Part shown: positions 7,210 through 11,712 of the stretch, in pieces | Position numbering within the stretch: the first letter of the stretch is position 1 | Layout: every line of letters begins with the position of its first letter | Assembly (NCBI GenBank): GCA_027596945.1 | Contig: JADGJH010000981.1 | Location: forward strand, 1-12,692 | Length of the DNA stretch: 12,692 nucleotides | Direction: 5' to 3' | From: Physocladia obscura | Taxonomy: Eukaryota > Chytridiomycota > Chytridiomycetes > Chytridiales > Chytriomycetaceae | Translations under genes and position numbers: made by a program | Notes under the pieces: model-generated | The model's input: the letters and a program-made list of their open reading frames with translations, nothing else | The model's database searches: none | What the model was told of the DNA's origin: nothing

Positions 7210-7382
7210 TCTATTCGACTGAATTTGATAACTTTTTTTGCTTTTTCATCTGAAATGGCAATTATAAAAAAATTTATTTTTTTGGTGGCACCCCCCCATT
7301 GACACGCCCACACAGTTTTCTCTGTGGAGATTCTCTAATAAAAAATTGAATTTCACTCTTCTTCCCTTCGGGTAGTGACAAA
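7210..7382. other. Unassigned spacer
   Basis: AT-rich DNA without a gene. It contains a run of seven C (in GCACCCCCCCATTG, near 7290-7300), unusual in such DNA, and a small imperfect hairpin (CACAG...CTGTG) near 7314-7328. Neither has an evident function. Confidence 0.3.
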
Positions 7383-7797
7383 TCAACTCAACTTTGAATA
7401 AGGTGTTTTATTTACACTGAAATACAGAAGGAGATATTGTGTTTATGTTAGTGAGAGTGTTAACTAAGAAAACTCAATATGGTGACATATTTGAATGGTG
7501 TGTTTTATTCACTCAAATACAGAGGGAGATAATGTGATTTATGCTGGTTAAAATAGTCGCTAAAAACGTGGGTTTGTTAAATAAAAAATGAGTATTATGT
7601 GACGAATCAGCTCTACTTTTATTTACACGGGATGGTAAAGTGATTTATGTTAGTGAGACTCTCCACTTAAAATGATGTATGTGTTTGAATGAGAGTATTC
7701 AGCTCAACTGAGATTCTTCACTCAAATTTAGTGGTGTGATTTATAATAGTGAGTCTAATTATTGAGAGTATTGTGTGTCGTCAACTCAACTTCGAAA
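7383..7797 (+). repeat. Degenerate tandem repeat, about four copies, roughly 100-bp period
   Basis: A recurring core can be read by eye. Copy 1 (about 7403-7465) has TTTATTTACACTGAAATACA, GGAGATATTGTG and TTTATGTTAGTGAGAG. Copy 2 (about 7500-7561) has TTTATTCACTCAAATACAG, GGAGATAATGTG and ATTTATGCTGG. Copy 3 (about 7615-7667) has TTTATTTACACGGG and GTGATTTATGTTAGTGAGA. Copy 4 (about 7713-7769) has TTCACTCAAAT and GTGATTTATAATAGTGAG. A second sub-motif, TCARCTCAACTTTGAA-like, recurs near 7383, 7606, 7699 and 7780. The copies are diverged and the spacing irregular, as in an old minisatellite. It ends about 170 nt before the OTU gene start. Confidence 0.6.
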
Positions 7798-7964: not shown

Positions 7965-10900
7965 ATGAAACGCAAACCAAACAACGAGAAGACAGCGCCC
8001 GTCAAGAAGCAGCCGAAGAAAGACAAGAGAACACCTCTTCCTCCCGATGTCAGGAAACTGTGGGCGAAGGCGACGACATCGACCCAAGCACCACAACCCG
8101 TAACTCGTCCTGACGACTACGAGCCAGGCGATTCTGATTTCGAAGAGTCGTCTCTTTCGCGTATACGCTCAGTCAAATCCTCAAATCCTCGAGAATCGGT
8201 ATGTTTTTACTTTCGTTTTGTGGCACGTCGCACTTTCATTCTTAATTCTTAAATAAATAGAAACCGCCGGATAAGTCGGATTTTCGTCTCTTGGGGATTT
8301 TGGAGTCGCCGCTCGCCTCCCTGTCGTTTTAAACAGACAGGTATGTGTTGAATCTTCGGTTAAATAACGCACCTGATGTGAACAATCAGGTGCGTTATTG
8401 TTAATCTGCATTCTTTTATCAATGCTTACGCTCTATAAAAAAGGAAAAATTACCGGTGCATAGAACTAGATTTTATTATTATTTTACCTTATTTATGAAT
8501 AGCTTATTAGATGGACAAGTGGTAATTTTCACTTCGTTTGTCTTTTATATTCTCAGCTAATTTTTTTATTCAGAACGGAAACAACGGAGTAAATATCGCA
8601 CCTCATCAAAACCCACTTATTCGAATCTCCCACGCTGCTGACCTTCAATTATTACCAAACAATCTCAAACCATCCGGCTTTGTCGTTGGGGATGGCAGCT
8701 GCTTGCCGCGTTCTATTCTACTCGTTCTTACTGGTTCACAGAACGGATACCAACAACTGCGTCAATCCGTGGTACAAAGAATCCTTTCGTCTGAACTGCA
8801 GTTTGAACCCGACATCTATCGTCTCTACAACTGTTCTGTGGACGACTACTGTACTCGAATGGCTGATGTTTTCGAATTTGGTGATATTATATTCGTCATG
8901 GCTGCTGCCTTGGTCCTTGAAGTCGAAATCCAAGTTTTCACATTCAGCAGCGACCAGAATGGAGCATCGTCATTAACATCACAAATATTTACTCCCTCAC
9001 ATCGACGCATTTCGACCATTCAAATACATCTGGACTCTGGGCATTCAGAGCATTGGAATGTTGACGCTGAAACAGGTCTTCGTTGGGTCACGAACGTTCT
9101 TGTGCGAGAACCACACTTCGATACTCTTGTTGGCGATGACCGTCGAGATTCTGGAGTAGCGCTACAGGCAATTTGACTTTTTATTTTCGTTGACTTGCTC
9201 CAAAAACATTTTCTGAATTGTTTTATTTTTTATCTCAAACAGGAGGACGACATGAAGCGGAAACTCTCGTCCCCAGACAATGTAAACACTTTTTCACACA
9301 TATTAACAGTCTCTCCCACTGATACTGATACTCGTTTTGTTCAGGAATGCTCGGATCTCCTCTTAGAAGTGAAAGGACGTCAACCTCTGCTGCCTCCACC
9401 TCGTCAACTGCTTCCACCATCGCCACCTCCACCTATTGTCCCTGCTGTCCCATCAGCTCCTCTTCGAAGTACAACAATTCGTCCTGGTCAAAATCCAAAG
9501 AATAGAGCCTATGTAGTCGGTGTTTCATATGAAGTCTCCTATCTTGCGGAATCTGTTGATGCTGCCTGTTTAGAGCCTCCACCTGTATTTCGATTGGATG
9601 GAAGGCCTGCCCACATTTTTTTGAAATACCATCCTGGGATGTTATGTGGAATGGAATGCGTCAGAAAACAAGGGACGACCATGAAGCAGCTGTTCTTGAG
9701 ATGATAAATGAAACTGGCAAAGCACGGAGTGAGATTGAGGAATTTGGGAGGGACTGTTGCGGAAATACGTTTGAATTGCCTGGCGGTTTCTGGGTCTCAA
9801 CTTGTTGTTTCTATCGCAAGAAGTTGAATGTTATGACTACCGGTCAAGATGCTGGCCATGTCAGCGGGTTGAGGAGGAACTGCCGCGGATGTCTCGCCAA
9901 CCACAACACCCTCAACAACATGCTCCGACGAACATTCAACATCGAAACCGCTCTCAGGTGCAAGGCACATCACCTAATTGGAAACAAGGAATGGACAACC
10001 GACGTCAAACCCGACATCTCTTATTCACTCATTCTCCGCGTCCTTCGAAACCAAGGCTTCATTCACCTCAGAACACAAGCAGATGTCATTGCTATTCGCC
10101 AACCGCTCTCAAAAGCTGAACAGGCTGACCACCTCGCTTGGATTAAAGCCCGAACCCACTACGGATTCAGAACCGGAGCTGAACTAATCCTTTTGACGGA
10201 AGCTGGATTAAATATGATTTCATTTGACCGTTCGAATTCAGACAAGAAAATCGACGAATTGGGGCAGACGGTTGTCACGGACTCATGGGGTTTCAACCGC
10301 CTCTCGAATTCGTTGTCGGAGAAACGTACGGACAGATTGTTGCGTGAATTGTTGGCGGGCGATTATGCTGAAGGAAATGCGGCGTTTATACGAAGAAATG
10401 GGGGTGGGGAGCCAAGACACTTGTCGAAAGAGTGGGAGGATTCGATTATTAGGGTTTGGAGTGGACAGACCCCCGAAGCAAGGCTACATGCCCATCAGCG
10501 GCGGCTTGGTGTGGTCCTTCCAGATATTCGCTTTTGGGGTACAAATGGTGGACTCCCTGAATTTCAAAAGCTGTGTCGACTCAATGCAAACGAAAACGGC
10601 AATATGGTTGATGAAATAACTGGAGCAGAGTTGTGTCCAGATGATTTGGGCATTGACCGTGTAATTAACGGAATTGTTGCTGGACTATCAGGCGAATATT
10701 GCAATGGACAAACTTTAATTGTTCATCGCCGGGTGAATGACATGAAGGAGGTAAAATATTTCTTTTGTTTTTTTTAATATAATTATTATTTCAGGCCGAC
10801 GGTCGCAAAGTCTTTGCAACACTCGAAACGTTGGAACTCGAGAAGAGACGTCGAAACCTTGTTCAACCTGACCATCGTATTGCTACGCAGCTCATCATGC

Positions 10901-10992
10901 GAGAATATTTGACCCAAATTCGAATTTTTCGAAACTCTCAATCATACAGAGACAATATGGACAGACTGGTGGCTAAAAAGAATGAAAATTGA
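7965..10992 (+). CDS. OTU-domain cysteine protease with unrecognised C-terminal region, multi-exon
   Basis: Proposed exons are 7965-8198, 8574-9167, 9243-9281, 9345-9584, 9665-10750 and 10795-10992, all joined in phase 0, giving about 796 residues. Residues 1-78 are basic, Pro/Ser-rich and probably disordered (MKRKPNNEK start, nuclear-signal-like). Residues about 108-242 form an OTU deubiquitinase-like domain: VVGDGSCLPRSI with Asp 118 and nucleophile Cys 121, then MADVFEFGDIIFVMAAALVL, and catalytic His 238 in SEHWNVD. A proline-rich linker (PPPRQLLPPSPPPP) follows at about 300-330. The remaining part, residues about 370-795, is unknown; Cys 400, 401, 416, 417, 442 and 445 with nearby His suggest possible metal binding. 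It ends at TGA 10990-10992 with AATAAA 25 nt later. The ATG at 7965 is the first in frame after a stop-free leader. Uncertain points are the 9168 GC donor and the 9585-9664 join. It might be a host gene or a domesticated element gene. Confidence 0.75.
8261..8340 (+). other. Candidate stop-containing cassette exon in OTU intron 1
   Basis: This 80-nt segment, G/C-richer than its surroundings, is flanked by a plausible acceptor (AAATAAATAG|AAACC) and a strong donor (GACAG|GTATGTG). Joined to exon 1 it adds 23 codons (KPPDKSDFRLLGILESPL and so on) and then TAA at 8330-8332. Inclusion would end the protein before the OTU domain; skipping joins exon 1 to the OTU exon in frame. It could instead be the last exon of a separate gene of about 101 residues. 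Confidence 0.4.
8363..8399. repeat. Perfect 15-bp inverted repeat with 7-nt loop
   Basis: AATAACGCACCTGAT (8363-8377) and ATCAGGTGCGTTATT (8385-8399) are exact reverse complements separated by GTGAACA. A further TTAA on each side can pair with a one-base bulge. It lies in OTU intron 1, about 20 nt after the donor of the candidate cassette exon. In RNA it would form a stable hairpin; in DNA it could be a short palindromic element or a protein-binding site. Confidence 0.85.
9168..9242 (+). other. Probable 75-nt GC-AG intron of the OTU gene
   Basis: The OTU exon would read into a TGA at 9174-9176. CAG|GCAATT at 9165-9173 fits the non-canonical GC donor class. The acceptor is CTCAAACAG|GAGG, ending at 9242. 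The join is phase 0 (VALQ to EDDMKRK). A poorer GT donor at 9156 (GGA|GTAGCG) also gives phase 0. Confidence 0.5.
9282..9344 (+). other. Probable 63-nt intron of the OTU gene
   Basis: The donor AAT|GTAAAC and the strong acceptor TTTTGTTCAG|GAATG bound a T-rich stretch. Its length is divisible by three and it holds no in-frame stop, so retention would simply add 21 residues. I favour splicing because of the strong 3' site. Confidence 0.5.
9585..9664 (+). other. Frame switch in the OTU gene: 80-nt intron or homopolymer frameshift
   Basis: Upstream coding is in one frame (through AESVDAACLEPP) and downstream coding is in another (KTRDDHEAAVLEM). A GTATTT donor at 9585 and a GCGTCAG acceptor ending at 9664 bridge them in phase 0. 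Alternatively, one base is missing at the seven-T run (about 9615-9622), because the downstream frame stays open and protein-like through FFEIPSWDVMWNGMRQ. Confidence 0.5.
10751..10794 (+). other. 44-nt last intron of the OTU gene
   Basis: GTAAAATATT follows GAAGGAG and the intron ends with ATTATTTCAG. It is very short, T-rich and phase 0, joining NDMKE to ADGRKVFATLE. The length and TTTCAG ending resemble nematode introns. Confidence 0.85.
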
Positions 10993-11022: not shown

Positions 11023-11138
11023 GAATCAGTTTATTTTTCGAAAGTTTTGTTCCTCATTCGAATTTTGTAGGTGGTTCAGTGACATCTGGTTCTTTATCTG
11101 GTTCATATTCTGAGTTGGATACTCCAACTGATGCTTAA
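11022..11138 (+). CDS. 3' tail of an unidentified gene at the edge of the virus-like segment
   Basis: A frame open from 11022 ends with a low-complexity, acidic tail, GGSVTSGSLSGSYSELDTPT then DA, and TAA at 11136-11138. This reads like a genuine C-terminus, but no start is visible. A TTTTGTAG sequence ending at 11070 could be a splice acceptor, making this an alternative last exon of the OTU gene. Otherwise it is the truncated end of a gene of the AT-rich element. The stop codon overlaps the 19-nt motif of the next gene, which favours the element. Confidence 0.35.
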   Translation, partial: RISLFFESFVPHSNFVGGSVTSGSLSGSYSELDTPTDA

Positions 11139-11153
11139 AAAAAACTGAATTTT
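11135..11153 (+). promoter_or_regulatory. Shared upstream motif, copy 1
   Basis: TTAAAAAAAACTGAATTTT ends 30 nt before the ATG at 11184 and is identical over all 19 bases to the copy at 11694-11712. Between motif and start is A/T-only-like sequence with an AATAAA at 11176-11181. Position and identity suggest an early-promoter-like element of a virus-type transcription system; the A-rich core followed by TGA recalls poxvirus and mimivirus early motifs. Confidence 0.6.
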
Positions 11154-11183
11154 AAAATGAAAAAAAAAATGTTTTAATAAAGC

Positions 11184-11615
11184 ATGGCTGTATTTGATGA
11201 TTTGCCTTTCGAGCTCAGAATTATGATTTTTAATTTCAAAAAAGCACATTTCTTTGTTGAACGTCAAAATAAACTTGAAAGTATCCTTCAAAGTAGACAG
11301 TCCAAAGTTACAGTCGATGATTATGACAAAATTGAAGTGAATTTGTTCATAAATCATGAAAGAACATCTGCCAGAAAATTGCGAAGTTATTACTCAAAGT
11401 GCATTCAGTTTATGCCTGTTGATTCAACAATGCTTGAGTTTTATTTATGCCATCAACAAAAAAAGGCAGTTATGACATTTCATATGACAAATAGTTTGGG
11501 TAACAATCCCCAGTCAATGGAAAGGCCAAACTGGATGGTCGAATTGCATGAGCGTAAAAAATTATGGCATAAACGTGATATGTACAATCTGCTGAATAAA
11601 ATCAGAAATTCATAA
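11184..11615 (+). CDS. Small F-box-like protein of the virus-like segment (143 aa)
   Basis: An intact ATG-to-TAA frame encodes 143 residues. The N-terminus, FDDLPFELRIMIFNF (residues about 4-18), matches the core of an F-box (LPxELxxxIF), the segment that binds Skp1 in SCF ubiquitin ligases. The rest is helical-looking and basic, with KLRSYYSKCIQFMPVDSTML and a Lys/Arg-rich end (HERKKLWHKRDMYNLLNKI); I cannot assign it to a family. F-box-like proteins are known from several large DNA viruses, where they redirect host ubiquitination; that role here is inference. The gene has no introns, is AT-rich, and has the 19-nt shared motif 30 nt upstream of its start. The next gene starts 131 nt after its stop, on the same strand. 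Confidence 0.65.
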   Translation: MAVFDDLPFELRIMIFNFKKAHFFVERQNKLESILQSRQSKVTVDDYDKIEVNLFINHERTSARKLRSYYSKCIQFMPVDSTMLEFYLCHQQKKAVMTFHMTNSLGNNPQSMERPNWMVELHERKKLWHKRDMYNLLNKIRNS

Positions 11616-11693
11616 TATTTACTTTGACCAATTTAAATAACATCCAGCTAGGTAGACTTTTTGTTGAAGTTCTTCATCTATTTTCTTTGGACG

Positions 11694-11712
11694 TTAAAAA
11701 AAACTGAATTTT
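11694..11712 (+). promoter_or_regulatory. Shared upstream motif, copy 2
   Basis: An exact repeat of TTAAAAAAAACTGAATTTT, ending 34 nt before the ATG at 11747. A TATAATA (11734-11740) lies between motif and start. The flanks outside the 19 bases differ from copy 1, so the match is local and not a duplicated block. Confidence 0.6.

Follow-up and report, generated by a model that had tools for sequence, protein, structure and literature searches.

The early motif AAAATTGA is common to Mimiviridae and to pacmanvirus, of the extended Asfarviridae, according to the passages cited here (PMC11788076; PMC11464507). In the same sources, AAAATTGA stands upstream of the helicase gene pltv_5 of the transpoviron pltv (PMC11788076), and a single transpoviron gene of megavirus vitis is described with an early motif, 54 nt before its start (PMC11464507); late promoters and hairpins are what the cited part of another account of Mimiviridae transpovirons stresses (PMC7031253). 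Transpovirons and Tlr1 are both described as combining an N-terminal PolB with a C-terminal helicase (PMC12721341). Among endogenous virophages, the CroV-responsive type is reported to be the one bearing the CroV late motif (PMC10945749). In fungi, a 1.5-Mb Asfarviridae-related region (PMC10640383) and a Polinton-like virus of the chytrid Spizellomyces (PMC7805220) are on record; according to an abstract of 2023, fungi were without any known dsDNA virus (PMC10640383), and giant fungal virus genomes have been reported from sorted virions (PMC9894930). Among the matches listed in the open-licence literature, none describes elements of the kind presented below in Chytriomycetaceae.

The locus considered here comes from the chytrid Physocladia obscura. 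The window, that is, the whole stretch of 12,692 nt that was analysed, is the entire contig C902 of a 21.76-Mb assembly of 1222 contigs. It contains two genes preceded by an identical motif, and these genes belong to integrated elements of about 8.7 kb with terminal inverted repeats (TIRs), present in dozens of copies, many of them decayed. Like the transpovirons pltv and mvtv, the chytrid element is short (~8.7 kb, compared with ~7 kb), has TIRs and a tandem repeat, and includes a zinc-finger-type gene and a helicase gene with an upstream early motif, with no capsid gene seen; the helicase is of the SF1 type, recognized here by the profiles PF13245/PF13604/PF05970, which matched in paralogues. 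In contrast to transpovirons, however, it is integrated into a fungal genome, where its copies are numerous and often decayed, and it has no known helper virus. Its repeats are subterminal rather than central, it carries OTU, 2EXR and intron-bearing genes, and its motif reads mostly CTGA instead of TTGA, the likeness being judged by motif and architecture.

The resemblance to the PolB-SF1 helicase fusions of Tlr1 and Polinton-like elements lies in the sequence of parts, from a putative polymerase palm through an SF1 helicase to a C-terminal nuclease-like tail, although the chytrid tail is HNH-like in appearance (by eye) instead of GIY-YIG, and the OTU domain is located in a separate gene. Furthermore, capsid, ATPase and integrase genes were not found among the scanned ORFs of the chytrid element, and the Pfam scan, which covered part of the ORFs of this element type, returned no rve integrase, no pPolB with exonuclease and no capsid gene. 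Searches for MCP and VLTF3 were empty, as were their controls, and carry no weight. Krupovic (2016) reportedly bears on the PolB and helicase of Tlr1 and transpovirons as well. The type 4 EMALEs of Cafeteria are comparable as genome-integrated elements with a giant-virus-type promoter motif, but, as described in the cited passages, their motif is the late one of CroV, and they are capsid-bearing virophages whose helper virus has been demonstrated (PMC10945749). With NCLDV early promoters (AAAATTGA), the chytrid motif shares the A-tract, the TGA and the short distance to the start codon, but here it belongs to an integrated element in which no viral polymerase was seen. An A-tract with TGA is also the core of the poxvirus early motif. 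Finally, cytoplasmic linear plasmids of the yeast killer type encode their own RNA polymerase and capping enzyme, whereas neither these nor a transcription factor was found among the scanned ORFs of the chytrid element.

Structure and gene content of the integrated element

The features of the window copy are listed in Table 1. Genome-wide, the TIR has at least 40 matches. The full-length pair, C365:6734-15430, spans 8.7 kb and encloses copies of the helicase-fusion, RING and last genes; shorter TIR pairs occur elsewhere. Read from the TIR, the gene order is the intron-bearing OTU/HNH-like gene, an optional 2EXR gene, the helicase fusion, a RING/TRAF-like gene, an assignment that lies below the Pfam cut-offs, and a last gene on the opposite strand. 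Four of five TIR pairs (the pairing of ends being assumed) showed no clear target-site duplication, and at the full-length pair, that of C365, there is a possible one of 5 bp, CAAAA, for which reason missing duplications were dropped as proof of a linear episome.

Table 1. Coordinates of the element's features within the window
Feature	Positions	Strand	Basis
Terminal inverted repeat, C-tract start, AAAAAATTGAATTT near 7340	7291..7578	+	Matches L035 (one end direct, other inverted), L037, L041
Subterminal repeats, spacing about 96-106 nt	7402..7756	+	–
Region of the intron-bearing gene, with an N-terminus rich in lysine, an OTU protease domain and a conserved C-terminal part	7965..10992	+	PF02338 4.6e-8
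Motif copy 1, TTAAAAAAAACTGAATTTT	11135..11153	+	Exact 19-mer match
2EXR/F-box-like gene, 143 aa, intronless	11184..11615	+	ORF; PF20150 8.5e-4, under curated cut-off
Motif copy 2, identical to copy 1	11694..11712	+	Exact 19-mer match
Putative PolB / SF1 helicase / HNH-like gene, first 315 aa	11747..12691	+	ORF, cut by contig end

Short, TIR-bounded, MITE-like derivatives also occur (C1148:6052-6675, C564:7624-8531 and C1210:3838-6545); their C-tract ends vary in length and no clear target-site duplication accompanies them. Where the window TIR has AAAAAATTGAATTT, the other copies read (L035, L037 and L041) have AAAATTTTGAATT, and this TIR sequence resembles the promoter motif.

The intron-bearing gene has 27 homologues, including some in Chytriomyces, Siphonaria and Physocladia, and its C-terminal part contains a stretch that is HNH-like by eye. 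Removal of the intron 10751-10794, the sole mapped exon limit, gives an NDxKExGGRKVF-type read-through of the homologue consensus. A perfect inverted repeat of 15 bp around a loop of 7 nt (8363-8399) is located in a non-coding part of this gene region and is not listed at the corresponding place in L037 (contig C1152).

The second gene downstream of the motif, referred to here as POL, belongs to a family with at least 94 genome matches among the best candidates, many with stops. A homologue of 1144 aa in Obelidium mucronatum, in which the first 90 or so query residues have no counterpart, shows the SF1/Pif1-like helicase from about residue 700, and profile comparison to structures matched PIF1 for this part. 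Ahead of the helicase, PolB-like motifs A, B and C can be recognized by eye in A1 (FDIQKCHTACL, KLMINCFVGCLN and LKTDCVVVED). Pfam, PDB-sequence and fold searches returned no support for PolB; two AlphaFold models were poor (mean pLDDT 42.5 and 51.2) and no fold in the PDB matched at E<=0.001, so that predicted structure was set aside as an argument. We thus treat the putative PolB palm as a lead rather than a result. No viral contig relatives of the element were found, which is a weak negative, and phage matches, in the best 20 of 75 records, covered the helicase part alone.

The 2EXR-like gene has few relatives in the genome (C1152, C589, C927, C820, C278 and C1057), and no database candidate shared enough words with the protein to be scored as an outside homologue. 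In C927 (L048, L056 and L057), the diverged 2EXR gene and its motif are located inside a Polinton-like element, recognizable by pieces of rve integrase (3.3e-7 and 7.3e-5, under the cut-off) and by ORFs with PolB-like motifs seen by eye. This placement suggests gene exchange between the two element types.

Placement of the motif before two gene families

The preliminary description had reported an identical 19-nt motif at the same distance before two adjacent intronless genes, and in this it was accurate: the two copies, both on the forward strand, match exactly, end 30 and 34 nt before the ATGs of the two ORFs, which are unrelated to each other, and are the only matches in the window at up to three mismatches. 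None of 200 dinucleotide shuffles of the window had two 19-mer matches. In the whole genome, the exact 19-mer occurs three times, compared with zero for the reversed control, and the third copy (C1040:1885) stands 35 nt ahead of a gene paralogous to the second one of the window. At up to one mismatch, six of seven genome matches precede the two gene families, and at the seventh, in C12, no such gene was found; at up to two mismatches, there is no excess over the control (26 and 26). The shared unit is a variable-length A-tract followed by YTGAATT, and the exact identity over 19 nt in the window is due in part to the A-tracts being equally long in this copy.

The core AAAAAACTGAATT has 38 genome sites, compared with 11 for the control. 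By coordinates, 22 of the 38 lie just before copies of the 2EXR or helicase-fusion families, two of them (C520 and C742) placed by extrapolating a truncated match. One additional family copy is preceded by the core in C385, and the cores of C905 and C954, the latter with a shortened leader, are likely to lie before diverged family copies, judged by eye. Altogether, 25 of the 38 cores (23 firm) precede the two families.

We read the region before codon 1 in 39 POL copies, searching from 20 to 60 nt upstream. A4+YTGAWT is present in 26 of these, at 35-41 nt (median 37), compared with 0.09 expected from single-letter shuffles; the copies are related, so the counts do not represent independent events, and the shuffles ignore A-tract clustering. 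Excluding C1035 and C385, which entered the set via motif searches, the figure is 24/37. The nearly fixed spacing to the ATG and the promoter-like character that the preliminary description ascribed to the motif are thus borne out across the family, and so is the resemblance to NCLDV early motifs, since five copies (C1035, C4, C48, C54 and C198) carry AAAATTGA exactly. At 44-46% identity, C48, C54 and C198 are the most diverged of the motif-keeping copies within the 39. CTGA, which the window copies have as well, is found in 21 more of the 39, including diverged ones such as C669 (48%), and probably in C905 (36-40%, outside the 39), and AAAATTGA may therefore not be ancestral. The strict motif is missing in 13 copies: seven have a variant of one or two bases in the same place (C951, C150, C853, C589, C307, C1143 and C557), one has a looser variant (C848), and five show neither motif nor variant before codon 1 (C105, C820, C232, C618 and C373), codon 1 of C618 having been extrapolated, possibly to a wrong position.

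For the 2EXR family, five starts were examined, with the decayed C589 and the fragmentary C278 left out. CTGAATT precedes four of them, in the window, C1152 (TTAAACTGAATTTT), C927 (TTAAAAAACTGAATTT) and C820 (TTAAACTGAATTTT), and C1057 has CTGA only. Identities are 43% for C927 and 38% for C820, and C927, C820 and C1057 together span 35-43%. The motif does not extend to the other genes of the segment: by eye, it was found before none of eight RING copies, nor before the last gene of L041 or the intron-bearing gene of the window. Absence before further genes of the same segment, which the preliminary description would have taken as refuting it, is thus seen in part, a distribution in keeping with a promoter for one class of genes and not for all.

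Hairpins of the Mimiviridae 3'-end kind first looked attractive because of C1152, C1040 and a palindrome, TCCAACGCGTTGGA. At the site directly upstream of the motif, hairpins are strong in C1040, C1152 and C54 only, and with a mean z of -0.53 over 25 copies the test was not significant, so they were rejected as a general feature. The hairpins of L037:5606-5633 (C1152) and L003 (C1040) are strong (z -4.2 and -7.6) and differ from each other. The palindrome TCCAACGCGTTGGA has only five genome sites (C820:12971, C1057:11088 and 9880, C927:7985 and C169:16906), and at two of them a 2EXR gene's motif core follows 10-14 nt later; the C927 site beside the 2EXR gene falls within a convergent ORF.

Candidate readings of the motif

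That the motif is a dedicated promoter of element genes is well supported. How it is read is less certain. We tentatively favor, with close to an even chance of its being correct, an early-type promoter of a transpoviron/Tlr-like element, read mainly by the giant-virus-type RNA polymerase of a helper. Under this reading, the ~8.7-kb TIR elements would have a dedicated promoter of early type, with the motif as its core, that drives two intronless genes, encoding an F-box-like 2EXR protein and a replication protein of the Tlr/transpoviron fusion type (putative PolB palm, SF1 helicase and HNH-like tail), with transcription presumably starting a little downstream of the motif. The preliminary description had assumed transcription machinery belonging to the element itself, which is not borne out: with no polymerase among the scanned ORFs, one would need to be supplied by the host or by a helper virus. 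On infection, a helper, perhaps asfar-like, may provide RNA polymerase, in the way put forward for transpovirons and for endogenous virophages that respond to CroV. The host would express the element's intron-bearing gene in the nucleus. Motif and architecture together suggest the link to viruses. Counting against it are the 13 POL copies without the strict motif, the prevalence of CTGA, the lack of general hairpins, the missing profile and fold support for PolB, and the single early motif and the stress on late promoters in accounts of Mimiviridae transpovirons; no giant virus was found here.

A serious, if doubtful, possibility is that the motif is an ordinary promoter of a nuclear transposon, used by host RNA polymerase II with a host factor, and that its likeness to NCLDV motifs reflects convergence on an A-tract with TGA. 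The copies lie in nuclear contigs and many are decayed, the short TIR-bounded derivatives are typical of DNA transposons, and the element also includes a gene with introns. Moreover, the possible target-site duplication of C365 and the CTGA of other diverged copies led us to lower our estimate of the helper-virus reading and to raise that of the host promoter. Against the latter stand the exact AAAATTGA in five copies and the composition of the motif-bearing genes, which are intronless and A+T-rich (33-37% G+C), whereas the intron-bearing gene has 42-49% G+C. The motif is also rare before other ORFs, as the reading in the preliminary description required: the examined loci contain 168 distinct ATG-ORFs of 100 aa or more, and the 11 that have it at most 90 nt upstream all belong to the two families (probably many of these ORFs are not genes, and the other 157 include family copies without the strict motif). 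Once the element genes are removed, the remaining 13 cores are at about the control level (11). A general host promoter is ruled out by these two observations.

It is improbable that a promoter leader was simply copied from one gene to the other, the identity reflecting shared ancestry instead of selection. The window's two copies are letter-identical, and in a comparison of 9 of 20 POL and 4 of 5 2EXR copies, the leaders that separate the motif from the ATG show weak similarity across the families (25% of 36 pairs at p<0.05, median p 0.22), whereas the stretch upstream of the motif behaves like shuffled sequence (6% of 36 pairs at p<0.05), so that a copied leader is conceivable. Nevertheless, the motif is kept across deep divergence in both families, and a copied leader would in any case be a copied promoter. 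Still less credible, indeed very improbable, is a function other than that of a promoter, such as that of a signal for the 3' end or the processing of the preceding gene, or of a replication or packaging site; both copies are intergenic and a few (C1152 and C1040) have a palindrome just upstream, but it is the distance to the downstream start that is nearly fixed, and the upstream sequence varies among copies. A chance repeat in A+T-rich intergenic DNA, to which the lack of excess at two mismatches might point, is refuted by the genome-wide placement together with the shuffles and controls given above.

Implications for chytrids and a possible virus of chytrids

What is known of large DNA viruses in fungi comes mostly from sequence data. 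A broader scenario, which we consider unlikely though worth stating, is that chytrid genomes harbor a large heritable population of transpoviron-like elements that exchange genes with co-resident Polintons and whose replication and F-box-like genes answer to an early promoter belonging to a chytrid virus yet to be discovered, a cytoplasmic DNA virus, infection by which would wake them as hyperparasites or as an inherited antiviral system. If the helper-virus reading is true, a conserved giant-virus-type early promoter in inherited fungal elements would point indirectly to a chytrid virus of this kind. The motif would then give a sequence tag for finding the chytrid virus and would extend virophage and transpoviron biology to fungi.
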